From: a virus
Reading direction: 5' to 3' (one strand)
DNA: 21,433 nt
IMG/VR virus record: IMGVR_UViG_3300046028_005466
Span: 1 to 21,433 of that record
Numbering within the stretch: the stretch's first letter is position 1; every line of letters begins with the position of its first letter. This document shows positions 2 to 20,945 of the stretch, in pieces. The notes beneath the pieces were generated by a model, which saw only the letters and a program-made list of their open reading frames with translations, was not told where the DNA came from and made no database searches. Both the position numbers and the translations under genes were made by a program.

Positions 2-787
2 GGAGAAGCTGGAGCTAAAGCGTCTAGACTTAAAGAAGAATTAGTTATTCTGAATGAAGCTAAAAATCTTAAATCTAAGATGGCTATCTATGATAAAGAG
101 TCAGCTACTGCGGAGAAAATTCATGGCGATGCTGTAAGTAGAATTAACCAACTTGAACAAGTAGGACAGATAAGCAGTTTAAGTGCTACTATGGCTAGAA
201 CTAAAGCTAATGAAAGACTTTTAGAGATTAGACAGAAAGATGTTGACTTAGCTAAGAAAGCTTTAGATGAAGCTAAACCAGAAGCTAGACCAGCTAGTCA
301 AGCTACTTACGATTTAGCAGTCCAGAGACTTGAAAGTCTAAAACTAGTAGCTAATGAAACTGGAGCTATGATTGAGCAATCTTTAGGTAATGCTTTTGAT
401 ACTGCATTCATAGGTTTAATTAATAAGTCTATGACTGCTAGTCAAGCATTTAAAGCTTTTACTAATAGTGTACTTGCAGACATAGCTAAGATTATCGCTC
501 AAGAGTTAAGAAGTCAGATACTAGGTTCTATTTTAAGACCTTTAGCTGGAGCTGCTTTATCTGGTCTTGGAAGTTTAGGACAAAGTGCAGGGTTATTCCA
601 AGCTACTAATATAAGTTCTGATGCTGCCTTTAGAGGTCCTATGAAACCTACTTTTGCAGCTAATGGCGGAGTATTTGCAGGTCCTGGAATCTCAGCACAC
701 TCTGGTACAATAGTTAGTTCTCCTACAGTATTTCCTTTTGCAAAAGGTGTTGGTTTAATGGGCGAAGCGTGTGCTCTTCCGATCTAG
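2..787 (+). CDS. Tape measure protein, C-terminal part (5' cut by window edge, 3' interrupted by adapter sequence)
   Basis: The frame is open from base 2, so the gene starts outside the window. The protein would set tail length inside the growing tail tube. Visible are a helical, Ala/Lys/Glu-rich stretch and then a block (about nt 360-530) of the kind seen at the C-terminus of lambda-family tape measures: IEQSLGNAFDTAFIGLINKS, then an ASQAFKAF and VLADIAKII helix. A Gly/Ala/Phe-rich tail follows, ending in GLMGEA. In lambda-type tape measures GLMGEA is normally followed by GPEAI.PL, but here it runs into adapter-derived residues (CALPI) and a stop at 785-787. The real protein therefore continues in the next fragment, in another frame. 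The gpM, gpL, gpK, gpI and gpJ homologues downstream support the identification. The family call is firm; the native junction sequence cannot be recovered from this window. Confidence 0.9.
   Translation, partial: GEAGAKASRLKEELVILNEAKNLKSKMAIYDKESATAEKIHGDAVSRINQLEQVGQISSLSATMARTKANERLLEIRQKDVDLAKKALDEAKPEARPASQATYDLAVQRLESLKLVANETGAMIEQSLGNAFDTAFIGLINKSMTASQAFKAFTNSVLADIAKIIAQELRSQILGSILRPLAGAALSGLGSLGQSAGLFQATNISSDAAFRGPMKPTFAANGGVFAGPGISAHSGTIVSSPTVFPFAKGVGLMGEACALPI
768..785 (+). other. Illumina TruSeq read-2 adapter remnant inside the contig
   Basis: CGTGTGCTCTTCCGATCT is an exact 18-base match to the 3' end of the Illumina TruSeq read-2 adapter, in the orientation in which the adapter precedes an insert. 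It is GC-rich compared with its surroundings. It lies exactly where a conserved tape measure motif (GLMGEA before, IPLKR after) is broken and shifted in frame. This is an assembly or read-trimming artefact rather than biology. Confidence 0.96.
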
Positions 788-1028
788 GAGAAGGAGGATA
801 CCTTTGAAACGAAATGCACAGGGCAAATTAGGGATTGCGGCTGAAAATGCTGGACATTCTAATAATAACCTGTATAATATCACAGTAAATGTAGAAGCTA
901 AACAAGGTGAATCCGCTTCTCAATTTGGAGATAGAGCTGCTCAAGCTATTATACGTTCAATAGCTAAAGAGGAAATCTCTAATGCTAGAAGACCTGGAAA
1001 TACCTTAAACAAATCGAGATTCGCCTAA
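786..1028 (+). CDS. Tape measure protein, extreme C-terminus (same gene, after the adapter)
   Basis: The open frame begins formally at a GTG (771) that is adapter sequence, so only bases after 785 are credited here. The product starts around RRRRIPLKRNAQGKLGI and ends NKSRFA. The IPLKR...GKLG block followed by an ITVNV strand and a final Ala/Arg-rich helix (AAQAIIRSIAKEEISNARR) is the usual end of lambda-type tape measure proteins. It therefore belongs to the upstream fragment. Deleting only the 18 adapter bases does not restore one frame, so a few native bases are also missing or altered (the net correction must be 1 mod 3). The stop overlaps the next start as TAATG, showing translational coupling to the gpM-like gene. 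It should not be annotated as a separate 85-aa gene. Confidence 0.85.
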   Translation, partial: RRRRIPLKRNAQGKLGIAAENAGHSNNNLYNITVNVEAKQGESASQFGDRAAQAIIRSIAKEEISNARRPGNTLNKSRFA

Positions 1029-1390
1029 TGACAACTACTGCACTTCCTTTAGGAAACAAGATAGCTATTGATAGTACTAAATCTGTTTCTTTTACAGAAA
1101 TGTCTTCTCAGTTTGGGGATGGGTACGAACAAGTAGCTCCTAAAGGTATAAACAATATAAGAGAAGCTTGGAATATAACTTGGGGAGCTTTAACTGAAAC
1201 TGAAAAGAATACAGTTATTGGGGTTATCGAGTCGGTAGGTTCTTGGGGTATTTTAACTTGGACTCCTTGTGGAGAAACAGTTCAGAAAAAGTACAGACTC
1301 GGTAAAGATGGCTATACCTTAAAACGTGAAGGTTCTAATGCTATCTTTTCAGTAAGTTGCTCACTTCGTCAAGTCTTTGATATAACTTAG
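1028..1390 (+). CDS. Minor tail protein, lambda gpM family
   Basis: A 120-aa protein, slightly longer than lambda gpM (109 aa). The N-terminal third has the signature of the phage minor tail protein family: a short beta strand, then FGDGYEQVAPKGINNIREAWNIT in pieces (FGDGYEQ, then INN.REAW). After it come an acidic helix and a Trp-rich loop (SWGILTWTPCGE), ending with a strand rich in charged residues. In lambda, gpM acts after the tape measure in building the tail tip between the tube and the gpL/gpK/gpI/gpJ complex. It starts at ATG in a TAATG overlap with the tape measure stop and is followed 8 nt later by the gpL-like gene. The gene order matches lambda H-M-L-K-I-J, which makes the call secure. 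Confidence 0.9.
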   Translation: MTTTALPLGNKIAIDSTKSVSFTEMSSQFGDGYEQVAPKGINNIREAWNITWGALTETEKNTVIGVIESVGSWGILTWTPCGETVQKKYRLGKDGYTLKREGSNAIFSVSCSLRQVFDIT

Positions 1391-1398
1391 GAGGTAAA

Positions 1399-1911
1399 GT
1401 GGATATAGATGACTTAACCCAGCGGTCTACCTTACCAGCCTATGTTGAACTTTTTGATATTGACTGTTCAGCTATTACTGGAATTGGGACTATTTATAGA
1501 TTAACTCCAAATGTAGGGTCTAATAACTCTAATATTATGTTTGGAGGGGATGCTTATACTCCTTTTCCAATCCAAATAACAAGTTATGCTCAAGATTCAG
1601 ACTCTGCGCCAGCTAGACCTACTCTTAGTATATCTAACGTAAGTAAGTTATTCGGTATGTTATCTTTTACTTTTCAAGATATTATAGGAGCTAGAGTTGT
1701 TTATTATAGAACTTTTGCAAACTATCTTGGACAATCTACTAAAGTTTCTGCAGCTCCTTTAAAGTTTACTATAGCTAGAAAAACTGCCCATAGCATGGGA
1801 ATGCTTAGTTTTGAACTTCGCTCTCCTTTAGACTCTGAAAGAGCTGTACTTCCTAAACGTCAGATGCTTAAAAAAGACTTTCCAGGACTAGGTATTAATA
1901 AGGTAATGTAA
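1399..1911 (+). CDS. Minor tail protein, lambda gpL family (short form without the C-terminal Cys domain)
   Basis: A 170-aa protein. The start is GTG with a strong AGGAGG at 1389-1394 that overlaps the gpM-like stop. The N-terminal two-thirds carry gpL family features: VELFDIDCSAITG.G.IYRLTP, then FGGDAYTPFPIQI, and ARPTLSISNV before a helix and strands. The C-terminus reaches a Leu-Pro-Lys-Arg motif and DFPGLG and then stops. Lambda gpL (232 aa) continues into a domain with four cysteines that binds an iron-sulfur cluster; this protein has only one Cys in total and lacks that domain. The stop overlaps the gpK-like start (TAATG). Function by family: part of the tail-tip hub onto which gpK, gpI and gpJ assemble. 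The family call is firm; the missing domain is directly visible. Confidence 0.88.
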   Translation: MDIDDLTQRSTLPAYVELFDIDCSAITGIGTIYRLTPNVGSNNSNIMFGGDAYTPFPIQITSYAQDSDSAPARPTLSISNVSKLFGMLSFTFQDIIGARVVYYRTFANYLGQSTKVSAAPLKFTIARKTAHSMGMLSFELRSPLDSERAVLPKRQMLKKDFPGLGINKVM

Positions 1912-2618
1912 TGTACGATATAGATGAACTGAATAGAGGGATTCTAAATAACTACCCTAATGAAAGTTGTGGGTTTATTCTTCAAGATAATACTATTATC
2001 TTCTGCATGAATATATCAGAAACTCCAGAAAAAGCTTTTAAGATAAATCCGGTAGATTATGTTAAGTTTTCTGGACAACTTAAATATATCTTTCATAGCC
2101 ATTGTATAAATCCTAGAACAAGTAGAAACTTAGACCCTAGAACTCCTTCAGTTGCTGACATGAAAGGTCAAGAGGTATCTGGAATTCCTTGGTTAATCTT
2201 TGCTACCGAAGGTTGGGTAGTTTCAGACCCTATAGAACTTCCAAGAACTTCTTCAAGCGAGTATCTGGAAAGACCTTTTATTTGGTTTATTAATGACTGC
2301 TATACCCTTGTTCAAGATTATTATAAATTCGAATTAGGTATTGAGTTAAAACCTTATATCCTGCACGACTACACAGCAATTCGGAAGTCAGATAAAGTTT
2401 TTGATGAATTTATAGAAGATTATGGCTTTATGGAACTTCAAAACCTAGATGACCTGCAGAATGGAGACCTTTTCATACTAGATAATTCTGGATTTAGAGA
2501 AAACCACTTAGGAATCTACCATGAAGGTTGCCTTATTCATCAAGGACTTTTATCTTGCAAAGAACCACTGGAAAACTATATGTCTCAGATTAAAAAGAGG
2601 TTAAAATATGTTGGTTAG
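1911..2618 (+). CDS. Tail tip endopeptidase, lambda gpK family (JAMM metalloprotease plus NlpC/P60)
   Basis: A 235-aa two-domain protein. Residues 1-110 resemble a JAB/MPN metalloprotease: an N-terminal NESCGFI with E18, then H62-S-H64 and a later S80-x-x-D83, which would bind zinc. Residues 120-230 are an NlpC/P60 peptidase: C130 in NDCYTLVQ, H199 in NHLGIY, and H210 in LIHQG as the likely third residue. In lambda-like phages this protein probably cuts peptidoglycan stem peptides during tail-tip assembly or DNA entry. It overlaps the gpL-like stop by one base and extends 11 bases into the gpI-like gene. The gap between the HxH pair and SxxD is longer than in most JAMM domains. Its sequence context (INPRTSRNLDPRTPS) suggests a loop insertion, not a loss of function. 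Confidence 0.9.
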   Translation: MYDIDELNRGILNNYPNESCGFILQDNTIIFCMNISETPEKAFKINPVDYVKFSGQLKYIFHSHCINPRTSRNLDPRTPSVADMKGQEVSGIPWLIFATEGWVVSDPIELPRTSSSEYLERPFIWFINDCYTLVQDYYKFELGIELKPYILHDYTAIRKSDKVFDEFIEDYGFMELQNLDDLQNGDLFILDNSGFRENHLGIYHEGCLIHQGLLSCKEPLENYMSQIKKRLKYVG

Positions 2619-3195
2619 AATCTATAGAACTTTAAATGAATGTATTAACTTTGAGACTGACCTTACAGATACTAGAGAGATTTTTAACTCTATAAAATAT
2701 ACTTATGGTGAAGATATTATAGATAGTCTGCTATACGCTAAACACGTTTTTGTAGGAACTATTGGTGAAAGAGTAGATGCTTTAACTCCTTCTACTTTAT
2801 TTTCAGATTTAACTCTCTATGAAGAATTGTATATAATTCCTAAAGTTGAAGGGGCAGAACCTATTACAGCAACTATGGTTATGTCAGCTTCTATATCAGC
2901 TACTTCTGCTGTAGGCGTAACTGGTGGTACTATTCTAATGTCAGCTGGTGTAGCTTCTGCCATTGCAGCTGTAGCTAATTTAGCTATAGGTATTGGTATA
3001 TCCATGTGCGTATCAGCTTTAATGTCTCCTACAAATACTTTTGGAAGTGATGCTGCTAGGTCTCAAAAATCAAGTACTATGTTTAATTCAGCTGTTACAA
3101 TTACTGAACAAGGTGGTTCAGTCCCACTAACTTATGGAAATCCTTTCTGCGGTGGTGTTTTAATTTCTTCTGGTCTTACTTCAACGGATAAATAA
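2608..3195 (+). CDS. Tail assembly protein, lambda gpI family
   Basis: A 195-aa protein. Residues 1-80 form a mixed alpha/beta domain ending YEELYIIPKVEG, as in the lambda tail assembly protein I family. Residues 86-139 are a long Ala/Gly/Ser/Met-rich hydrophobic segment that could span or insert into a membrane. Near the C-terminus, VPLTYGNPFCGGVLISSG (172-189) is the conserved family motif. The start lies within the gpK-like gene (11-base overlap). The stop is followed two bases later by the gpJ-like ATG. By family it is needed for tail-tip assembly together with gpJ and is thought to leave the finished particle. The alternative small minus-strand frame inside it is a shadow. Confidence 0.9.
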   Translation: MLVRIYRTLNECINFETDLTDTREIFNSIKYTYGEDIIDSLLYAKHVFVGTIGERVDALTPSTLFSDLTLYEELYIIPKVEGAEPITATMVMSASISATSAVGVTGGTILMSAGVASAIAAVANLAIGIGISMCVSALMSPTNTFGSDAARSQKSSTMFNSAVTITEQGGSVPLTYGNPFCGGVLISSGLTSTDK

Positions 3196-3197
3196 TA

Positions 3198-6100
3198 ATG
3201 AGTACAGAACTTATCGTAGCTGGTGAAATGGGTAAAGGTGGTAGTGGACCTGTTGAGAGCGTAGATACCTTAATTAGCCGTCAAACTGTTAAAACTTTAT
3301 TTGTAGTAGGCGAAGGTGTTATTAGTGAAATTGAAGAAGTCTATTTAGATACTGTAAGTATTGATAGATTTGACGCAGATTTGCTTACTAGAACTGGAAC
3401 TGATGGACAAGAAGTTATCGAAGGTTTTACAGATACAGAAGCTCCTCTTCCTGGATTTGTAGGTAAAGTAATAGATAAAGGTGATGAAAATATACCTAAT
3501 GTAGATATATCTCCCCTTGTAACTACAAATATTACTAATTTTGTAGTTAATAAGTTCTACAGAATTACCAGCCTAGGTAATGCTACATCTGCACAATGGA
3601 TGGCTGTTGGTGCAGGTACAAAATATGTACCAGCTGCTATTGGTATGGTTTTTAAAGCTAAAAAAGCTGGAGTTGGTGTTACTGGTGCAGGTGTTGAGAA
3701 AGTTAGTTTCCAGCAAAATACTTATGAAACAGCTATTCCTTACGATGCTAATAGAGCTAGACTTACTTTCACTATTCCTGTTATGCTTCATGTAGATGGG
3801 GATGGTAATACTGGCGGAAGTGCAGTAGAACTTGATATTTATACAAGACCAAATAGCACAGCTAATTGGAATCTGGTAGCTAACTTTACTAAAAAAGGTA
3901 AAACTACTCACGGCTATACTTTTGACAAAGAAGTAACTCGCCCGTCTAATGTAAATCCTAATAATAGAATACCTTGGGAAATCAAAGTTCTTCGGGTTAC
4001 TGATGACTCAGCTACAAATGATAGTAAAACCCAGAATAAAGTAAGTTGGTCAGCTGTTACTCAAATTTATGATACTACTAATACTTATCCAAATTCTGCC
4101 TTAGCTGGTATTACCCTACGAGATGCAAGTCAGTTTGGTAACAAAGTTCCAGAAATTATGTTTAAAGTTAAAGGTAAACTTGTTTTAATACCTTCTAATT
4201 ATAATGCAGCAACTAGAGTTTATACTGGAAACTGGACTTCAGGCAGTTGGTACTCAGTTCTAGGAGTACTTACTAAAGTTTACACTAATAATCCAGCTTG
4301 GATTATCTATGATGTTCTTACAGATACAAGAGCAGGTCTAGGGTTAGCTCAAGCAGACATAGATATTTATTCTATCTATCTCTTAGGCAAGTATGCGGAT
4401 GAACTTATTCCTTATACTGAAGGTATTAATAATATACAAATCCCTAGATATACTTTGGATTATTCTTTTCAAACTAGACAACCAGTTAGAGATTTCCTTA
4501 GCCAAATTCTAAGTATCTGTAATGCTAACTTGATTACTAATGAACTTGGGCAGGTAGCTATTGTCTTCCAGTATCCTGGACAAGTAGTTAGAAGAAATAT
4601 AACTAATGCTAATGTAGTTGATGGTATTTTTACTTACCAAAGTTCAAATATTGAGCAAAGAACTACTTTAGTTAATGTAACTTATAACAATGGTAAGAAC
4701 TTTGGGCGGACAGATACTGCTACAGTATTTGAGCAAGACCTTATAGATAGGTATGGGTTACAACCTATAGATGTAGTACTGCCTGGTTGTTATTATGAAG
4801 CTCAAGCTATTAGAAAAGCTCGTTGGACTTTATACTCTAACTGTCACTTTACTAATTTTGTAACTTTTAACGTATTCCTGGACGGTTTAAACTATAAGAT
4901 TGGGGATTTAGTTAGAGTTTATGATAACTATAACCAAAATACTCAACAAGCAGGAACTATTGTTTCTTACTCTAATGCCAGCGGCACAACTACTGTTATC
5001 TTTGACCGTACATTAACCTTAAATAATGGCTCTTATACTTTCTATTGCTATGATACTTCTGGGGCTGAAATAACAAAGACTATATCAGTTGCTGGTTCTA
5101 TAGCTACTGCAACTACAGTTGCAATTCCAGCTGGAACTACTAATCACCCAGATTATGACTACCAAGGTTATGTAACTAAATACGGGATTCCTGCTACTGG
5201 AGTTCATCTAACTGATGAATTTAAACTACCTTCGCATATTACATTTAGTACTAATTCAATTTATAGTTCTACTAACTTTTTAGGCGGAACTTGGACTGGA
5301 AGTGGGACTACTTGGCACTTTTACCCTTCAATCTATAACTTAACCCAGTATAATGCTGCTGAGTACATAGACTACTTTACTCATGTAGAGTATATAGGAA
5401 CTTATCTACATTTAAATGGGCAAACTTACCAAGGGACAGTTGCTTTAAACGGAACTCCTTCTGCAACTACAGTTTATATTGCTAAACAATTTCCAGGAGC
5501 TATTGACCAAAGAACAGTAAATGCTTCTACTTTAGATAGGATTACTTTAAACTCAGTAGTTACTTTAAACTTAGGTGGGATATTTATTCTATCTGGGGCA
5601 GCTGCTGGTAAAGTTTATAGAATTACTAATATAACTAAAAGCGAGGAAAGTCAATATGCCGTTACAGGGTTAGAGTTTAGTGATTCTATCTTTGATTATA
5701 TAGATTCGGGCATAGATATAACTCCTTTAACGGGGGACTTTGTAGATGTAGACCAATTCTATACTACAGATGTTGAATCTATTTCTTGGTCAGATAGTTC
5801 AGCTACTAATGGTAGTTATTCTAATAGTACTTTACATATAAGTTGGATTTGGGACTCAGCTAAGACTCAAAAGTATAGAGCTAATTTTAAACTAAACTAC
5901 TATGGTCCTAGTGCTAATACAGTTATGGTAGACCAGATTACTACTGATAACTATGATATTCCTAACCCAGTCCCAGGAAGATATATAGTCACTTTATGGG
6001 CGATTAATCCTTTTACTGGAATTAGTTCTAAACCTAAAATTCAAGTTGTAGACTTTAAAATAGATTCTACAGTAGTTTCTACTTTGCAAGCTCCTATTAA

Positions 6101-9100
6101 TGTTAGAATTACTGGAACTACGGCTGTAAGCCCTCAACCAGCTAGTCTTAGTTTTACAACCCCAGATTTAAATATAAGTTTTGATTATAACCCAGACAAC
6201 CAAGCTGTTGATGATGCTTTAGGAGACTATCTTCTTGAAGTATGGGAAATTGCTATAAATCCTAATACTCAAGCAGTTACTTATACTACTCTTAAAAACT
6301 CATACCCTATAGCAGCAGAAGCAGGCTCTCTTATAGTTGACCCTACAAGCCCAGATACTAGCTTTACACCTTTAAATGGTAGTTTTCAATTTTCTTTAAG
6401 CGAGAACTTACATACGTTTGGAGGAAGTCCTTCAAGAACTTTAGGAATTAAAATCTATAGTAGAGATTTGTTTGGGCATATTTCAGCTAACCCAGCTACT
6501 GTAGTTTTTTCTAACCCAGTTCCAGTTAAAATTACTACTACAGACTATAGCGTAGTTTCTGGAGTATCTTCTGTATTTGTCAATATCAAAGCAAGTACTG
6601 AGGTTGATGTTAAAGGTTATTTAGTTTGGAGAAGTACCTCCCCACTATTTATTAAAAACTCAAGTACTTTAGTATATGACGGACCTAATAACTATGTAAC
6701 TTTACCAGTACCTACTGCAACTAAGTATTGGTACTCGGTAGCTGCTTATGATAACTTTAGTAAGACAGAGTACTCTCCTTCTGACGAGCAAGATTCAACT
6801 CCTGCAAGTGCTGATGCAACTACTTGGACTAAAACTGGACTTCAGTTTACAGCTAATGCGATTACTAAAACTCTTAGTTGGACAGCTGGTACTGTTATAA
6901 GAAATGCTACTAATACTTTTAATATAGTAGCTGGTACTTCAGTATGGTCTACTGGATTTTTATATGTTTACTTTAATCCTAGTGTTTCTACGACTGCTTT
7001 GCAAGTAACTACTACGCTCCTAAACGCAGTTCAAATAGGTTGTTATCCTATTGCGACTTATACTGGCGGAGATAATAGTACAATCAAAGGCGGAGATGGT
7101 AATGCTTTCATTTCTGGTTCTCAGATTATAGCTGGAACTGTAGGTGCTTCAGAGATTAAAGCTGGTTCTATTGTTGCAAGTCTTTTAGATACTACAAATG
7201 CAGTTATTACTGGAACAGCTCAGATAACTGATGGTATTATTACTAACGCCAAAATCGGAAACTCTATTATGAGCTTGGACTACAATCCAACTACTTATAA
7301 AGGTTGGATTATAGATAAAGCTGGCAATATTAATACTTATGGCTCTTTAGGACTCTACGATACTAATGGCAATGTAGTATTTGCAGGTGGTAACTTTAAT
7401 TGGAATAATGCTAAAGGCACTGGAGTTCCTCAAGTAGGGGCTACTAGAAACGTATTTACAGGACCTTGGTTAACTAATACTACTTATGTAATTGGTGATA
7501 TAGTTACTGATGGTTTAGGTTATGGTTGGTCTTGTGTTACAGCTCATACATCTTCTGCTTCAGTTAAAACTCCAGTATATCCTATAACCTCTAATTCTTA
7601 CTGGGCAATTTATACTGTTAAAGGCGATTCAGCATCTTCTACAACTATAGTTTCTATCTATAGAAGAGTAGCTGGGACTAATCCTTCATTGCCATTGCCT
7701 TCTGGAACTGTAACTTATAATTTTAGTTCTGGAACTCTTACTGGGTTAGATAATGGTTGGTCTAAAGATGTTCCAGCTGGAGTAGACCCTCTATATATCT
7801 CAGCTGCTACAGCTGTAGGAACGGGTAGTGCTACTATAGGTGGATGGGCAACTCCAGTTCTTTTTGTAAGTAACGGTATTGATGGGACTCCTGGCACTAA
7901 TACTGCTACAGTTACCTTATACCAAACTACAGCTACTTCTTCACCTCCAACACGCCCTCTTATACCACTTACTTATAAATTTTCAGATGCTACAATAGCT
8001 GAAACCTTGCCTAATAACTGGCAAAGAAGTTTACCTACTACAGGTGCTTATCGGTGGATAACTACAGCTACCGCTCTAGGAACTACAGCTACAGATACTA
8101 TTTTAGCTAGTGAATGGGCACCTGTAAGTTTACTTGCTCAAGATGGTGTTAATGGTCTTAGAACAGCTATCATGGATATGTACCAATGGGCAACTTCAGC
8201 TCCTACTACGTTTCCTTCTGGGGTATCTACTTTTACATGGGCAAACGGACAGTTTACAACGCCACCAACCCCTAATAATTGGCACACAACTCCTCAGACT
8301 CCAGTTAAAGGTCAAACTTTATATATAGCTAGAACTATTTATACTGATTCTGGTACTTCTGAAAATAGTTTAATTTCTTGGACAGCTACTACTGCTACTC
8401 CTAGAAGCATTGCAGGTATAGATGGTACTCCAGGAACTAGAACAGCTTACTTAGAAGTATATAAATGGTCTGCAGTTGCTCCGACTAGCTTTCCTCAAGG
8501 AACTTCTACATATACTTGGCTAAATGGAACTTTTACAGATGCTAATGTAAATACTAATGGCTGGTTGTTAGTTCCTGGAGCTTCTGTACAAGGGCAAACT
8601 CTTTGGGGAATTAGCCAAGCTTATAGTGATACAGGAACTTCTAGTACTAGTTCTGTTACTTGGTCAAGCATATCACCTTATGCTTTAGGATATGCTGGTA
8701 TAGATGGAACTGCAGGTAAAACAGCTGCTAACTTTGGTATAGATAATGCTGCAGCTATATTTAATAAAAATGCTAGTAATGTTATAGCCCCTAGTGCGGG
8801 TATTACCTTAACAACTAGCTACCAAAATATAACTGGAACTCTCAGCTATCAATGGCAAAAGAATGGAGCTAATCTTGCGGGTGCTACTTCCAGTAGTTAT
8901 ACAGTTCCAACTTCTGACTATAACTCTGTAACTTCAAATACCTATAAAGTTACTATAACTGGAACTATTAATGGGGTTGCAACTTCTTTATCAGATACTA
9001 TAACTATCCCTATGCTTATAGACGGTGGTTCTAGTGCTGTTGTTCTTCTTTCTAATGAGAATATAACTTTTAGTGCGCCTAATGTCTTATACTCTGGTAT

Positions 9101-12100
9101 AGATTTTAGTAATGGTACTTGCGATATTACAGCTTATATAGGCTCAACCCAGTTAACTTATGCAAGTAGTGGGGCTAACACTTTTAGTTTAACTTATACA
9201 AGTACTTCTGCTTCAGTAGGTGCTGGGTCTAATCCAGTCTCGCAGATATTAAGAATTCCTGCTCCAACTGCAATGTCAGCTGAAAGTGCTGCTGTTACTA
9301 TAACAGTAACTGTTAGGGATAATGCTGGAAATGCTTTACCTTTAATTGTTAAAACTTTACGATACAATTTAAGTAGAGCTGGTGCAGTAGGTATGTCTTA
9401 CTGGTTGTCTAATACAGACTATTTGAAACGGTCTACTAGTTTAGTCTACAGTCCATCTGCTATTACTTTAAATGGTTATAGTGCTGCAGGTTCTGGAAGT
9501 CCAGCTGCTTACGCCTGTAGATTCAAAATCTACGAAGACGGTAGTGCTAGTGCAATTTATACTTCTTCTGTAGATGAAGCAGCTAAGTCCTATACTCCAA
9601 GTACAACTTCTGTAGGATATATAAAAGTTGAAATGTACCTAGCCGGAGGTACTACAACTTTAGTAGATTATTCTACTATTCCAGTAGTCCAAGACGGCTC
9701 ACAAGCTTTAACTCTTGTAGAACCTAATTCTGCCGTACTTTTATCTTCTGACTCAGCTGGGAATGTAAGCTCCTATGCAGGTTCGGGTACTACTATTAAA
9801 GTATTTGAAGGGTCAACTCCACTTCTATTTACAACTGGAGTTGTTACTAAAGGTTATTTTGGGGTTAGTGCTTCAGTTACTAGTGGTTCTATTGCTATTG
9901 GAGGTTTAAGTGGAGCTTACACGTCTACCTGTACAGTTGCAAATCATTCTAATCTAAGTACTGACTCAGCTAATATTACATATACAATAAATGTAGTAAA
10001 AGCTGATGGAAGTGCAGTTACTTTAACAGATATTCAGACTTTAACTAAAAGTAAAGCAGGGGTTAAAGGTGATTTAGCTCAGTTAGTTATAGTTAATGGT
10101 GAGCAAGCATTTAAATTTGCAGCTGATTCAACTACCCCAGTTAATACTTCTATAACTCTTTCGGCAGCTTTATCTGGAGGACTTACTACTTACAGTTGGG
10201 AATATTGGTACGCTAATCTTGTTTGGCTTCCTTTACCTGCTCCAAATACTGGCTCAACTTATAGCTTAACCTATAATAATTCAGCTTTTGGTACTTCTAA
10301 TAGTTTAAGAGTACGTTGTTTATCTGGCACAGCTTATGATGAAATAACTATTGTAAAACTTTATGATGGAGCTAAAGGTAAAAATGCTATTACAGGTTAT
10401 CTAACTAATGAAAGCGCAGCTTTACCTGCTGATTCTTCTGGTACAGTATCTAGTTATGCTGGAGCTAGTGGCAGTTTTAAAGTATTTGATGGTACAACTG
10501 ATGTTACTAATAGTTCTACTTTTACACCTACAGTAACTACAGTTAGTGGTGTTACTGTAATTCTTAATAGCCCAGGTGGTACTTATAGTGCTTCTGGGAC
10601 TATGAATGCTGACTCAGCTTCATTTACTTTAAGTGCTACTTATGGCGGAGTTACAATTAATAAAGTTCTATCTCTGACTAGAGTTAAAGCTGGTGTAACT
10701 ACTACTACAACTAATACTATTGTAGCTGATACAGTAACTATAACTGGTGGGCAAGCATTTAACTATGCCGCTGGAAATACTACAACTCCTACTGGAACTG
10801 GCATAATAACTTTAACTGCTTCTTTAACAGGAACATTAACAACTTATGCTTGGGAATACTGGAATGGTGGTTGGGCGTCTTTAGGGGTTTATAGTTCTAC
10901 TTATTTTTTAACCTACACTAGTACCGCATTTGTTGGAGATACTGCAAGAATTCGCTGTTTGTCTGGTACTAAGTACGATGAGATGACAATAGTTAAACTT
11001 TATAGTGGAACTAATGGTAAAGATGCTGTAGTTGGGTATTTAACTAACGAAACAGCTACTTTCCCAGCGGATAGTACTGGTGTTATTAGCGATTATACGG
11101 TAGCAGCTGGTCAATTTAAAGTATTTAGCGGTACTTTAGATATAACTTCTGGTTATTCTACCACTTATAGTGTAACTACAGCTACTGTTGGCGGGTTAAC
11201 TCTTAGTATAAACTCATCTGGAGCTTATTCGGTTGCTGTAAGTACTCAATCTACTGTAAATACTACTAATTCCTTTACTTTTGAAGTTAAAGCAGTTACT
11301 TCTTCTAGTTATGGTAATGTTACTGTAGTTAAAAGTATTAAATATGCTAAGAGTAAAACTGGAACTCCAGGGATAGGTACTAATGGCGCAGATGCTGTTA
11401 TAGGTCAATTAAGTTCAGATTCTATAATGTTGTCTTGTGACTCAGCTGGTAATCCAGTTGGCACATCTCCTTATGCTACTGTAACTATGACATTAAATAA
11501 AGGAGGGGTAGATGATTCAGCTAATTGGACTTACTCTGCAAGTCTTAGTAATTTAACTTCTAGTTCTGCTTCTAACTCAAGAACTCAAAACATTACTGCA
11601 TTTGGCGGTGGTACTACTAACCAAACAGGTTATATAGATTTTACTGCTAGTAGAACTGGTTACGCGTCTATAGTTAAAAGATGTGTCTTTGCTAAGTCTA
11701 TTCCAGGGATTGCTGGAGCTGGTACTAATTATACAGGAGCTAGTGACCCAACTACTTCTAACCCAGCAGCTGCTATTAATGGTGATAGTTACTTTCAAAC
11801 AACTACTCAGTTAATGTGGGTAAAGGTAAATGGAACTTGGCAGAAAGTAGTTCCTCAGATTACTAGCGGGAATGCTACACAATTTATAGCTACTGCAGCT
11901 ATCGGGCAAACTCAAATTGGCAGTGCAGCTATTGGAACTGCTCAGATTATTGATGCTAATATTAGTACTTTGAAGATTCAAGGAAATGCTGTTACTGTAC
12001 CTTTATCTAACAATGTAGTTGGGCCTACAACTAATAATACTAGTTATTCTGGAACTACCTTTAGTCCTGCTATGTGTTCTTTAACTTTTACTAATCCTTC

Positions 12101-12413
12101 TGCCACAGAACCTATAAAGATTTTAGTATCTTTTGGGTTTAGTTATTTCTTCCGAGGAGCTTTAACTGCTGGAGGTTCTTTTAAAGGCTGTCTTATGAAT
12201 GGAACTACTACAGTCTATTCTGCTTCGTGGGGAGGTAGTATGTTTATTAGCACTGGCTTGATGAGTATTGCGGAAGGAGCAGGTTCTAGTTCAGTTATAC
12301 TTACCGTAGCTGCAGGAGCTTCTATAACTTTAGATGTTAAGCATCAAAAAACAGGCGCAAGTTTATTTACTTACTCTAATGCGTTTATTTCTATAGTTGG
12401 TTGTCGGAGATAA
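3198..12413 (+). CDS. Giant central tail fibre / host specificity protein, lambda gpJ family (3071 aa)
   Basis: At 3071 aa it is about 2.7 times lambda gpJ (1132 aa). Residues 1 to about 900 are the conserved gpJ hub: PVESVDTLISRQ, FVVGEG.ISEI and a YLDTV strand at the start, then the phage tail hub fold (e.g. RYTLDYSFQTRQPVRDFLSQ). FnIII-like strands follow from about 960. A coiled region rich in AGTVGASEIKAGSI, like the central straight fibre of J homologues, lies near 1310-1380. Next are four tandem 87-93-aa modules (residues 1482-1841) linked by collagen-like GxxGTxG turns, an Ig-like segment (about 1860-1946), and alternating Ig-like modules (2171 to about 2860). A second IGTAQI.DANI coil near 2900 leads to a C-terminal beta domain that should contact the receptor. 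Codons and composition are uniform, and no frameshift is visible. The hub call is certain; the receptor is unknown. Confidence 0.93.
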   Translation: MSTELIVAGEMGKGGSGPVESVDTLISRQTVKTLFVVGEGVISEIEEVYLDTVSIDRFDADLLTRTGTDGQEVIEGFTDTEAPLPGFVGKVIDKGDENIPNVDISPLVTTNITNFVVNKFYRITSLGNATSAQWMAVGAGTKYVPAAIGMVFKAKKAGVGVTGAGVEKVSFQQNTYETAIPYDANRARLTFTIPVMLHVDGDGNTGGSAVELDIYTRPNSTANWNLVANFTKKGKTTHGYTFDKEVTRPSNVNPNNRIPWEIKVLRVTDDSATNDSKTQNKVSWSAVTQIYDTTNTYPNSALAGITLRDASQFGNKVPEIMFKVKGKLVLIPSNYNAATRVYTGNWTSGSWYSVLGVLTKVYTNNPAWIIYDVLTDTRAGLGLAQADIDIYSIYLLGKYADELIPYTEGINNIQIPRYTLDYSFQTRQPVRDFLSQILSICNANLITNELGQVAIVFQYPGQVVRRNITNANVVDGIFTYQSSNIEQRTTLVNVTYNNGKNFGRTDTATVFEQDLIDRYGLQPIDVVLPGCYYEAQAIRKARWTLYSNCHFTNFVTFNVFLDGLNYKIGDLVRVYDNYNQNTQQAGTIVSYSNASGTTTVIFDRTLTLNNGSYTFYCYDTSGAEITKTISVAGSIATATTVAIPAGTTNHPDYDYQGYVTKYGIPATGVHLTDEFKLPSHITFSTNSIYSSTNFLGGTWTGSGTTWHFYPSIYNLTQYNAAEYIDYFTHVEYIGTYLHLNGQTYQGTVALNGTPSATTVYIAKQFPGAIDQRTVNASTLDRITLNSVVTLNLGGIFILSGAAAGKVYRITNITKSEESQYAVTGLEFSDSIFDYIDSGIDITPLTGDFVDVDQFYTTDVESISWSDSSATNGSYSNSTLHISWIWDSAKTQKYRANFKLNYYGPSANTVMVDQITTDNYDIPNPVPGRYIVTLWAINPFTGISSKPKIQVVDFKIDSTVVSTLQAPINVRITGTTAVSPQPASLSFTTPDLNISFDYNPDNQAVDDALGDYLLEVWEIAINPNTQAVTYTTLKNSYPIAAEAGSLIVDPTSPDTSFTPLNGSFQFSLSENLHTFGGSPSRTLGIKIYSRDLFGHISANPATVVFSNPVPVKITTTDYSVVSGVSSVFVNIKASTEVDVKGYLVWRSTSPLFIKNSSTLVYDGPNNYVTLPVPTATKYWYSVAAYDNFSKTEYSPSDEQDSTPASADATTWTKTGLQFTANAITKTLSWTAGTVIRNATNTFNIVAGTSVWSTGFLYVYFNPSVSTTALQVTTTLLNAVQIGCYPIATYTGGDNSTIKGGDGNAFISGSQIIAGTVGASEIKAGSIVASLLDTTNAVITGTAQITDGIITNAKIGNSIMSLDYNPTTYKGWIIDKAGNINTYGSLGLYDTNGNVVFAGGNFNWNNAKGTGVPQVGATRNVFTGPWLTNTTYVIGDIVTDGLGYGWSCVTAHTSSASVKTPVYPITSNSYWAIYTVKGDSASSTTIVSIYRRVAGTNPSLPLPSGTVTYNFSSGTLTGLDNGWSKDVPAGVDPLYISAATAVGTGSATIGGWATPVLFVSNGIDGTPGTNTATVTLYQTTATSSPPTRPLIPLTYKFSDATIAETLPNNWQRSLPTTGAYRWITTATALGTTATDTILASEWAPVSLLAQDGVNGLRTAIMDMYQWATSAPTTFPSGVSTFTWANGQFTTPPTPNNWHTTPQTPVKGQTLYIARTIYTDSGTSENSLISWTATTATPRSIAGIDGTPGTRTAYLEVYKWSAVAPTSFPQGTSTYTWLNGTFTDANVNTNGWLLVPGASVQGQTLWGISQAYSDTGTSSTSSVTWSSISPYALGYAGIDGTAGKTAANFGIDNAAAIFNKNASNVIAPSAGITLTTSYQNITGTLSYQWQKNGANLAGATSSSYTVPTSDYNSVTSNTYKVTITGTINGVATSLSDTITIPMLIDGGSSAVVLLSNENITFSAPNVLYSGIDFSNGTCDITAYIGSTQLTYASSGANTFSLTYTSTSASVGAGSNPVSQILRIPAPTAMSAESAAVTITVTVRDNAGNALPLIVKTLRYNLSRAGAVGMSYWLSNTDYLKRSTSLVYSPSAITLNGYSAAGSGSPAAYACRFKIYEDGSASAIYTSSVDEAAKSYTPSTTSVGYIKVEMYLAGGTTTLVDYSTIPVVQDGSQALTLVEPNSAVLLSSDSAGNVSSYAGSGTTIKVFEGSTPLLFTTGVVTKGYFGVSASVTSGSIAIGGLSGAYTSTCTVANHSNLSTDSANITYTINVVKADGSAVTLTDIQTLTKSKAGVKGDLAQLVIVNGEQAFKFAADSTTPVNTSITLSAALSGGLTTYSWEYWYANLVWLPLPAPNTGSTYSLTYNNSAFGTSNSLRVRCLSGTAYDEITIVKLYDGAKGKNAITGYLTNESAALPADSSGTVSSYAGASGSFKVFDGTTDVTNSSTFTPTVTTVSGVTVILNSPGGTYSASGTMNADSASFTLSATYGGVTINKVLSLTRVKAGVTTTTTNTIVADTVTITGGQAFNYAAGNTTTPTGTGIITLTASLTGTLTTYAWEYWNGGWASLGVYSSTYFLTYTSTAFVGDTARIRCLSGTKYDEMTIVKLYSGTNGKDAVVGYLTNETATFPADSTGVISDYTVAAGQFKVFSGTLDITSGYSTTYSVTTATVGGLTLSINSSGAYSVAVSTQSTVNTTNSFTFEVKAVTSSSYGNVTVVKSIKYAKSKTGTPGIGTNGADAVIGQLSSDSIMLSCDSAGNPVGTSPYATVTMTLNKGGVDDSANWTYSASLSNLTSSSASNSRTQNITAFGGGTTNQTGYIDFTASRTGYASIVKRCVFAKSIPGIAGAGTNYTGASDPTTSNPAAAINGDSYFQTTTQLMWVKVNGTWQKVVPQITSGNATQFIATAAIGQTQIGSAAIGTAQIIDANISTLKIQGNAVTVPLSNNVVGPTTNNTSYSGTTFSPAMCSLTFTNPSATEPIKILVSFGFSYFFRGALTAGGSFKGCLMNGTTTVYSASWGGSMFISTGLMSIAEGAGSSSVILTVAAGASITLDVKHQKTGASLFTYSNAFISIVGCRR
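7641..8720 (+). repeat. Four tandem 87-93-aa modules within the gpJ-like protein
   Basis: Module starts fall at residues 1482, 1569, 1656 and 1749, ending at 1841, so the lengths are 87, 87, 93 and 93 aa. Each begins with a T[AT]-x-x-x-[IVLM]-Y strand (SIYRR, TLYQT, DMYQW, EVYKW). Each then has a P-rich turn, a TYxFxxGx strand, an N-N/G-W motif, and an Ala/Thr strand before a collagen-like G-x-x-G link. They are diverged at both protein and DNA level, so the duplications are old. Confidence 0.85.
9708..11790 (+). repeat. Alternating two-type Ig-like modules in the C-terminal half of the gpJ-like protein
   Basis: Type A modules start at residues 2171, 2397, 2610 and 2733. They share a run of N/S-E/D, then LPADSxGxVSxY, then a KVFxGTxD strand. 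Type B modules start at 2294 and 2506. They share QAFxFAA, TTYxWEYW and RxRCLSGTxYDExTIVKLYxGxxGK. The order is A-B-A-B-A-A with spacings of 123, 103, 109, 104 and 123 aa. This indicates duplication of an A-B pair in the fibre shaft. Confidence 0.8.
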
Positions 12414-15105: not shown

Positions 15106-15870
15106 TTATATAACCTCTTCTTGTTTTAGATTAGTTTTAGCTATCGTAAAGATAACATGAGTTTTTCTATTACCACTTGTTTTAAAGCTTACTGAAGTAA
15201 ATAAGTTTGTATATAGATTTATAGCTTCTATAGCTGGGTCTATGACTTTACTCCTTAGGTTCTTAAAAGTTTGATACTCCATTTCACTAAACCCCATTAC
15301 TTCCTTAAACTCTTCTATAGTGTATTTCTTAGTCTTTAAGTTTGCCCATCTATTTAAGATTCTATAAAGTCTTATAGCATGAATACTCTTTAACTTTCTA
15401 ACATCATCAAGACAATACTTAGAGTAAGGCATCTCTTCCCCAAACTGACAGAGTAGATGTAAGATAGAGTCGTGCCATTTAATCTCTACAGAAGAAGTAT
15501 CTGAGTTATATCTGCAAGAATGAACCCAGTGTACAATAGTTTTACTTTTCTCGTGAGCTTCTGAGTCTAGTAAAGTAGTTTTAAGAGTTATAGTTCTAGT
15601 CATTAAAGTTTTACAAGCATCTACTAGAGTATTGTAAGCGGCATTCTTAGATAAGCCGTACATTTCAGCATATTTATCCAGCTCAACTTCATAGTACTTA
15701 TCTCTATCTATAGCTTCCACTTGGTAAATAGGAGCTAGGCATAGTTGAAGAAGTTTAATCTCGGTTTCATTGAGTTGATGGTAACTTTCTATTATCTGAT
15801 TAGCTTCACAGATAACTCCATTACCCAGTCTCCCCTTTGCCGTTATCTTCTTCTCTATTTTCACGCTCAT
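15106..15870 (-). CDS. Plasmid-type replication initiator, Rep_3 (RepB) family
   Basis: About 254 aa, with the two winged-helix halves of Rep_3 initiators. The N-terminal half has LNETEIKLLQLCLAPI, then YYEVELDKYAEMYGLSKNAA and the CKTLM.R helix. The C-terminal half has KLKSIHAIRLYRILNRW, then YTIEEFKEVMGFSEMEYQTF, KNLRSKVIDPAIEAIN and a final strand RKTHVIFTIAK. Such proteins bind iterons and open the origin. Three 21-bp iterons lie 216 bp upstream of this start. I favour the ATG at 15870, which has AGAGG nine bases before it; an in-frame ATG at 15879 would put that AGAGG directly against the start. The 5' end overlaps a 48-aa gene in another frame, suggesting translational coupling. Family call is confident. 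Confidence 0.9.
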   Translation of the reverse strand: MSVKIEKKITAKGRLGNGVICEANQIIESYHQLNETEIKLLQLCLAPIYQVEAIDRDKYYEVELDKYAEMYGLSKNAAYNTLVDACKTLMTRTITLKTTLLDSEAHEKSKTIVHWVHSCRYNSDTSSVEIKWHDSILHLLCQFGEEMPYSKYCLDDVRKLKSIHAIRLYRILNRWANLKTKKYTIEEFKEVMGFSEMEYQTFKNLRSKVIDPAIEAINLYTNLFTSVSFKTSGNRKTHVIFTIAKTNLKQEEVI

Positions 15871-15967
15871 CTCTATCATCCTCTTGTTTAACTTTAATGT
15901 CTTTAAGTTCTCTAGCTCTTAACTTATCCAAGTAGCTAGGTTCAGTTGGTTGTTGTGGGTCGGTCAT
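15821..15967 (-). CDS. Small highly charged leader protein overlapping rep (48 aa)
   Basis: The ATG at 15967 has GGAG seven bases upstream. The frame runs 48 codons to a TAA at 15821-15823, ending about 50 bases inside rep in a different frame. The peptide begins TDPQQPTEPSYLDKLRAREL and then becomes a run of Asp, Glu, Lys and Arg (25 of 48 residues are charged). It is the first gene after the predicted rep promoter. It could act as a translational leader that opens the rep start, as known for some plasmid initiators, or be a small control protein. No homologue recognised. Confidence rests on the good ribosome site, the promoter position and the overlap. Confidence 0.55.
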   Translation of the reverse strand: MTDPQQPTEPSYLDKLRARELKDIKVKQEDDRDERENREEDNGKGETG

Positions 15968-18724: not shown

Positions 18725-19489
18725 CTACCTATCAGCTAGTTCTTTGACTACAGCAGCCATAACTGGAGGACTTAAATCGGGTTGTCTAACTAACCACTTC
18801 AAGTAGTCAGTAGGGATTTCACTAAACCTCTTTCCTCCATGTTTACCGAAAGGCATAAGAGTAATAGCTTCTACCACCTTATTAAGTTCCTCATAAGTCC
18901 TAGTTCCTTGAGAACATAAACTAACTAAATCCTGCCAGTCTTTAACTTGCGGAAGCTTCCGAACTATCTTCAGAAGGACTAAATACACCAACTTACAGTC
19001 TAGAAGTGCCCCGTGAGCTTTAAGTGTTAGCTTCTTCCCTTCTTCTTTATACAAGAACTCAACTAAAGTAGTTAGTTTATGGTTAGCAAGACCATCTTTT
19101 TTAGTATAAACTAGTTGGGCAAGCTCTTTAGTGCAGATAAGCTTAACGTCTGGTTTCTGGAATACCCTCCAGTCATAAGCAATGTTATGTCCAATCATAA
19201 ACTCAACTGACTTTGGGTACTCAAACTCCCTAATAGATGGACAATTTATCAAGTCCTTCATGTAAATGCCAGTAACTTGACTAGCTCTAGGGTCTATAGC
19301 CTTAGTTGGTCTGTACCTTTGCTCAAAAACACTAGGATGAACTTCATGTGAGGTTAGGAAAGCTACGGGGTCGGGTATATCTAGCTCTCTGAACTCGTCA
19401 AAGTTCTCTGGCATAGTTATGAAGGCTACTTCGCAAGCTTGAGGTTCAACTAACCCAGTCGTTTCAGAATCTGCAATAACTATTTTCAT
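18725..19489 (-). CDS. ExoX-like DEDDh 3'-5' exonuclease with C-terminal DUF3820
   Basis: A 254-aa protein. Catalytic residues visible are D7 and E9 in IADSETTG, D106 in GHNIAYD, and H159 and D164 in KAHGALLDC; together they make the DEDDh set of the DnaQ superfamily. Residues 212-250 (MPFGKHGG then a helix with YLKWLVRQ) match the small DUF3820-type domain that also ends E. coli ExoX. The enzyme would degrade DNA from 3' ends using two metal ions. The ATG overlaps the ligase stop as TAATG, with GGAG nearby, so the two are coupled. It is the last gene of the operon before a hairpin terminator. Likely role: processing DNA ends during phage replication or repair. Confidence 0.88.
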   Translation of the reverse strand: MKIVIADSETTGLVEPQACEVAFITMPENFDEFRELDIPDPVAFLTSHEVHPSVFEQRYRPTKAIDPRASQVTGIYMKDLINCPSIREFEYPKSVEFMIGHNIAYDWRVFQKPDVKLICTKELAQLVYTKKDGLANHKLTTLVEFLYKEEGKKLTLKAHGALLDCKLVYLVLLKIVRKLPQVKDWQDLVSLCSQGTRTYEELNKVVEAITLMPFGKHGGKRFSEIPTDYLKWLVRQPDLSPPVMAAVVKELADR

Positions 19490-20358
19490 TAATCTATCTC
19501 CGCTAAAGTTTTATCATGTCTAATACACTTGAAACGAGGTTCTCTAAGCTGCCCATCTGGAAGTTCTTTCATAGCTTTAACTTCTACTACTTGACCTACA
19601 ATTAACTCTCTTGAGTTCCACCATCTTTCCCTCTGGTCATCGGTCATACCAGAAACTTGATGTTTAGTACCATCTCTACTCTGAACAATCAAAGCTCCTA
19701 AAGTTCCTTGATACTTACCTTCGCCTTCAACCATACCTACTACGGCTAAGTCTTTAGTTACTTCTTCCTTGATTTTCATCATATTAGCGTTGCGCTTTCC
19801 GAAGAAGTAACCTGCTTCCCAGTTCTTTAAGATTACACCCTCTCCTCCAAGCTCTAAAATAGAGTTAAAGTACTTATATATAAGTTCTTCGTCACTTGTA
19901 ACTGCAAGAATTGGAATTAACTCTACCCAATGACCTAACCATACTTTTAACATTTCATAAGCTATATTAGCGTACTTGTATCTTTCTTTAAAAGCTAACT
20001 CTGGTCTATCTAAAAAGATAGCATCATGTAAGTTTAGAACTACATCACTAGCTTCTTCTGACTTTCTATTTAGAACTCCATTAAGTTCATGGAAAGGTAA
20101 ATTTGGTATAGTAGCTTCAAAGATAAGTCTTAAATTCTCTTTAGGAGATAGAGATTTAACTATAAGCTCGTTCAAGTAATCTACTGAAGGGATTTCCCGT
20201 TCAGCTCTTGAGCTTAACTTACCCCATTTACCATCTATATAGTCGATATAGAGCAGCCATCCATCCTTTTTCTCCATAATAGCATAGGTTTCAAGTTTAA
20301 AGTTCTTTTTAGCTTTAGCTTCATGGAAATGAAGTACTTTCTGTATTGGATATGTCAT
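19489..20358 (-). CDS. ATP-dependent DNA ligase
   Basis: A 289-aa small ligase. Motif I is MEKKDGW, with K30 as the nucleophile that takes the AMP. Motif Ia is around SSRAE (49-53), motif III LIFEATI (78-84), motif IV EGVILKN (173-179), and motif V MMKIKE (193-198). Residues from about 203 onward form the OB-fold domain (GKYQGTLGALIVQS and the final KAMKEL..GQLREPRF strand). It lacks an extra N-terminal DNA-binding domain, as in other compact phage ligases. The start overlaps the ThyX-like stop as ATGA with a strong AGGAG. It would seal nicks during phage DNA replication. Family call is secure. Confidence 0.93.
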   Translation of the reverse strand: MTYPIQKVLHFHEAKAKKNFKLETYAIMEKKDGWLLYIDYIDGKWGKLSSRAEREIPSVDYLNELIVKSLSPKENLRLIFEATIPNLPFHELNGVLNRKSEEASDVVLNLHDAIFLDRPELAFKERYKYANIAYEMLKVWLGHWVELIPILAVTSDEELIYKYFNSILELGGEGVILKNWEAGYFFGKRNANMMKIKEEVTKDLAVVGMVEGEGKYQGTLGALIVQSRDGTKHQVSGMTDDQRERWWNSRELIVGQVVEVKAMKELPDGQLREPRFKCIRHDKTLAEID

Positions 20359-20945
20359 ACTGACTCCTTAATAAAGTGTGGATGTTCTAAGTTATTCAGA
20401 AGAAACTCACAAAAAGTTCTCCAATGTTTATACCTATGGTCATGTCTCTGTCCGTAGATATGTCTCAGAACCTTATAATTCGTAGTAACTACTCGTTCTT
20501 GTAACCAACCTTCTGGAAGGTTCTCCTTGAGCCTAGTTATATCATTGTAGTAAGGTGACTTAGGACTTTTATACGAAAGTAAGCACTTATTAAAGGCTGA
20601 AATCATACATTTAGAAGTTCCCTCTTCAAAGTCACTATACCCAACAATCCTAGCTTTCAAAGTGTGCATTGTAGAAGCACTTTGTTTACTAACTCCTACA
20701 CGGTAAGTATCAAACTCCTGCCAGAAAGCTCTTGTAGCTTGTACATATAGCTGAACTGTAATGTGTTCAAGAAGCTTATTATGTCCTCCATCTTTATGAG
20801 CTAGGAGTTTAGCTCTTTTGTCCGCTTTGAGTATCTTCTCTTCAGTCCACCAGTCTTCTAAAGGAGTTATATGGTCATAGTAGCTTAAAGCCATACCAAG
20901 TAAAGCTCCAGAATACCCTGTTTCTTCTATAATGTTTATTTTCAT
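20355..20945 (-). CDS. FAD-dependent thymidylate synthase-like protein (ThyX family, altered motif)
   Basis: A 196-aa protein. HNKLLEHITVQLYVQATRAFWQ (in pieces, residues 55-76) matches the ThyX helix with conserved H55, E60 and H61. The segment after it, DTYRVGVSKQSAS, occupies the place of the ThyX signature RHRxxSxxxxS. Here one His-Arg is replaced and the serines are shifted, so the family's hallmark is only partly kept. The C-terminal LPEGWLQERVVTTNYKVLRH and YGQRHDHR resemble the usual ThyX end. Members make dTMP from dUMP using FAD and methylene-tetrahydrofolate. It lies between a nucleotide kinase and DNA ligase, consistent with supplying dTTP precursors. Activity with the altered motif is unproven. 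Confidence 0.8.
   Translation of the reverse strand: MKINIIEETGYSGALLGMALSYYDHITPLEDWWTEEKILKADKRAKLLAHKDGGHNKLLEHITVQLYVQATRAFWQEFDTYRVGVSKQSASTMHTLKARIVGYSDFEEGTSKCMISAFNKCLLSYKSPKSPYYNDITRLKENLPEGWLQERVVTTNYKVLRHIYGQRHDHRYKHWRTFCEFLLNNLEHPHFIKESV

Follow-up and report, generated by a model that had tools for sequence, protein, structure and literature searches.

Adapter sequence with a probable library-kit tail divides a lambda-type tape-measure gene in a viral contig

The locus and its surroundings

The window analysed here is the whole of a stretch of viral DNA of 21,433 nucleotides (IMG/VR record IMGVR_UViG_3300046028_005466). Near its beginning lie two open frames, 2-787 and 771-1028, on the left and on the right of a site carrying CGTGTGCTCTTCCGATCT on the plus strand (768-785). 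The TruSeq read-2 adapter ends in exactly these bases. Downstream come lambda-type minor tail and tail-assembly genes. A PHROG search assigned positions 628-844 of profile phrog_1716 to the left half and positions 852-928 to the right half. Relatives of the tape-measure protein were present in 11 IMG/VR contigs (65-87% identity). All of them have an uninterrupted frame through GLMGEAGPEAILPLKR, and the motif GPEAILPLKR is invariant in the 11. Because the profile continues from one half into the other, and because the frame is continuous in every relative, the two apparent genes are one tape-measure gene, falsely cut, as the initial annotation had proposed. The comparison relied on IMG/VR contigs because INPHARED phage records gave no DNA match to the window and their protein matches were distant only, mostly to phages of E. 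coli.

Further into the window, an open frame of 3071 residues (3198-12413, plus strand) has an N-terminal part that resembles tip attachment protein J (Pfam FNIII-A_GpJ, Phage-tail_3), with no Pfam match over most of its length. A Rep3 replication initiator of the plasmid type is encoded on the minus strand (15106-15879; Pfam Rep3_N, Rep3_C), alongside the lambda-type tail genes of this phage. Rep3 was also found in 3 of the 10 related contigs searched, and its presence in the window suggests a phage-plasmid or a plasmid-like mode of replication. Finally, at 18725-20945, again on the minus strand, an exonuclease of the RNase T type is clustered with an ATP-dependent DNA ligase and with a weak match to a ThyX-like thymidylate synthase.

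Extent of the foreign block

The sequence GTGTGCTCTTCCGATCT has a single site in the window, even when up to three mismatches are tolerated, a tolerance at which chance would yield a mean of 0.04 sites. By simple arithmetic, 21 kb read on both strands should contain a given 17-mer without mismatch about 2.5e-6 times. The motif GCTCTTCCGATCT is common to both TruSeq adapters, and it has no second site in the window at up to two mismatches.

Alignment with the two nearest relatives, contigs L002 and L003, places the limits of the block. The window departs from them after C768 and rejoins them at T799 (Table 1). The base at the position of 768 is C in the 11 relatives, followed by A or T, so that C768 is native and the foreign adapter comprises 17 bases. 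The adjoining stretch 786-798, AGGAGAAGGAGGA, matches none of the relatives. The block 769-798 spans 30 bases where the relatives have 17 different ones, a net gain of 13. On both sides the likeness to L002 is close: 166/168 bases (98.8%) over 601-768, and 229/229 (100%) over 799-1027. Judged from these alignments, C768 is native and 769-798 is foreign, standing in place of 17 native bases. It is because the net change amounts to +13 that the frame is broken, and that it is not restored by taking out 18 bases alone.

Table 1. Native and foreign segments of the tape-measure locus
Feature	Position	Strand	Evidence
Left part of the tape-measure gene, native; start outside the window	2..768	+	PHROG tape-measure matches; relatives 65-87% identical
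Foreign: final 17 bases of the TruSeq read-2 adapter	769..785	+	Exact, sole match; absent from all relatives
Foreign: tract of 13 purines, most likely a 3' tail from a library kit	786..798	+	Absent from all relatives; same arrangement in other contigs; tail chemistry PMC9699676
End of the same gene, native; stop codon included	799..1028	+	229/229 bases of 799-1027 identical to L002; phrog_1716 852-928

The initial annotation had thus seen much of this correctly. The exact 18-base match at 768-785 is confirmed, and the window has no other. Its interpretation as an Illumina adapter embedded by artefact in the assembly is supported by the exact and sole match and by 11 relatives that are continuous and devoid of adapter. 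That removal of the 18 bases would leave the frame broken is explained by the shift of +13. Two of its statements hold in part. The adapter origin stands, and the count of foreign bases falls to 17 (769-785) with a native C768; native bases are lost, and they are 17 rather than a few. Where the foreign part had been limited to the adapter, the alignments extend it by the 13 purines of 786-798.

The purine tract as a probable library-kit tail

All 13 bases of 786-798 are A or G, and runs of 13 purines begin at only seven positions of the plus strand of the window. Read on the minus strand, the order is native sequence, TCCTCCTTCTCCT, then AGATCGGAAGAGCACAC: the tract TCCTCCTTCTCCT, made of C and T only, lies directly before AGATCGGAAGAGC, between the 3' end of the fragment and the adapter. 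A single-strand kit of the Adaptase type would produce this order, adding a C/T-rich tail to fragment 3' ends and then ligating the read-2 adapter. The tails of Accel-NGS 1S Plus are mostly C/T, with a mean of 8 and up to about 12 bases, and are found at fragment 3' ends (PMC9699676). In a paper on such libraries (with a JGI-type pipeline), the first 10 bases of reads were discarded on account of the tail, and adapters were trimmed with k=23 (PMC6511391). The tract 786-798 is most likely the reverse complement of a C/T-rich tail from an Adaptase-type kit (Swift Accel-NGS 1S Plus); we infer the type of kit, and likewise the link between Accel-NGS 1S Plus chemistry and the library from which the window came. 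Taken as a whole, the block 769-798 is very probably library-preparation sequence, 17 adapter bases with the 13-base purine tract next to them.

One might suppose instead an ordinary TruSeq contamination, with 769-785 alone foreign and 786-798 native but altered by errors or by strain difference. The elements AGG and AGAAG of the tract do recur, in the same order, in the 17 bases of the relatives. However, with the GPEAILPLKR motif unchanged throughout the 11 relatives and flanks 98.8-100% identical to L002, a burst of change restricted to 13 bases is not to be expected; the frame stays broken whether 17 or 18 bases are removed; and a purine tail after the adapter recurs in other contigs. We regard this explanation as unlikely.

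Adapter-bearing contigs elsewhere in IMG/VR

The same 18 adapter bases are present in more than 100 other IMG/VR contigs. If the tail is a library product, purines should follow the adapter more commonly than pyrimidines, and this was the prediction behind targeted scans. Adapter followed by 10 purines was found in 12 IMG/VR contigs, in every case near a contig end, and adapter followed by 10 pyrimidines, the control, in three. The purine runs of the 12 contigs extend from 10 to 25 bases and differ in sequence. Half of these contigs (6/12) start exactly at GTGTGC, and in five more it is preceded by 1-7 bases that differ from the continuation of TruSeq; the full adapter is absent upstream in 11 of the 12, as it is in the window. 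A general scan of adapter-bearing contigs found no purine bias after the adapter, with a run of at least 9 purines at 1 of 128 sites and more of the TruSeq adapter upstream at most of the 128; the tail is therefore not something that adapter contamination shows in general. IMG/VR sample 3300046012 is the source of one purine-tail contig, and samples 3300046007, 3300046009 and 3300046011 are sources of phage relatives, a proximity of numbers that is only suggestive.

Two other public contigs carry the adapter at unusual places. In L030 (3889-3906) the adapter lies 1.3 kb inside the contig, with P7 index sequence upstream; in L069 (68-85) it is near the contig end in outward orientation, preceded by sequence resembling the read-1 adapter. 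A literature search on adapters embedded in assemblies returned nothing specific among the matches listed.

How the block may have entered the assembly

Survival of so short a piece of adapter would be accounted for by trimming with longer k-mers (k=23, for example), blind to an internal match of 18 bases, and a tail of 13 bases exceeds the 10 that are discarded. The join of the adapter to the left flank, GGCGAAGC, might stem from a chimeric library molecule or from the assembly of a strain mixture. As a conjecture, a mixture of strains diverging just left of the site may have made the assembly fragile there. An internal adapter joined directly to native sequence is unusual among the contigs scanned, and this counts against an artefact of the kind proposed. 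Should trimmed reads keep the 18 bases, this would fit the artefact too, if a library chimera or long-k-mer trimming is at work.

The adapter might also mark a misjoin between two different strains, or two different phages, which we consider improbable. Identity to L002 and L003 is indeed 88-89% over 50-768 and increases to 99.6-99.7% over 799-3770. Yet the same step separates L002 from L003, without any adapter (90.0% on the left, 99.9% on the right), and in the comparison with L002 identity already climbs near 600, to the left of the junction. A switch of strains at the junction, with that step already present between the two relatives, is not favoured. Moreover, the collinearity of both contigs with the window holds from the first tens of bases as far as 3773 and so includes the site; no large misjoin is present in that stretch, and the change is a local replacement of 17 bases. 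The misjoin that the initial annotation had entertained does not fit, if meant as a large one, since the order and spacing of the flanks are those of two near relatives on both sides. The step in identity is natural variation in the tape-measure gene.

This variation deserves a comment of its own. Over the minor tail genes the strains are 99.6-99.9% identical; immediately upstream, in the tape-measure gene, the difference is 10-12%, the pair L002 and L003 included. Such divergence beside near-identical genes suggests local recombination or fast change.

It is scarcely credible that the gene is interrupted by a natural insertion which, by providing a ribosome-binding site for TTG at 803 as start codon, lets the C terminus be made separately. 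AAGGAGG does stand six bases upstream of this TTG in the recorded sequence, but the insert is exact adapter sequence, no relative has it, and purine composition accounts for the resemblance to a ribosome-binding site. Even more remote is a phage variant whose tape-measure C terminus is translated as a protein of its own, from a newly arisen purine-rich ribosome-binding site.

Consequences for annotation

The relevance of these observations is to data quality only: the record contains a false gene split, a laboratory artefact and not biology. The purine tract 786-798 is open to misreading as a ribosome-binding site, but it should not be read biologically, and the artefact ought to be masked in annotation. 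For viromes made from low input, 17-18 adapter bases together with a purine tract, in an internal position, are a practical signature of contamination of a kind that trimming by longer k-mers can miss.

Comparison with known systems

One close counterpart is the Adaptase tail of Accel-NGS 1S Plus, which shares with the window a tract of C and T only, at the fragment 3' end and directly before the read-2 adapter. It differs in length: the 13 bases of the window are slightly above the quoted mean of about 8 and maximum of about 12, with 10-25 in the other contigs, and the last purine could be native-like by chance. With TruSeq read-2 contamination of metagenome contigs the window has in common an exact adapter sequence that no relative carries; in the contigs scanned, by contrast, the adapter is nearly always within some 230 bases of an end, often with more adapter upstream, whereas in the window it is internal and limited to 17-18 bases. 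Finally, the likeness to the lambda-type tail tape-measure protein (phrog_1716) lies in the consecutive parts of the profile that the two halves match, and the difference, an interrupted frame in the window, is due to the artefact only.
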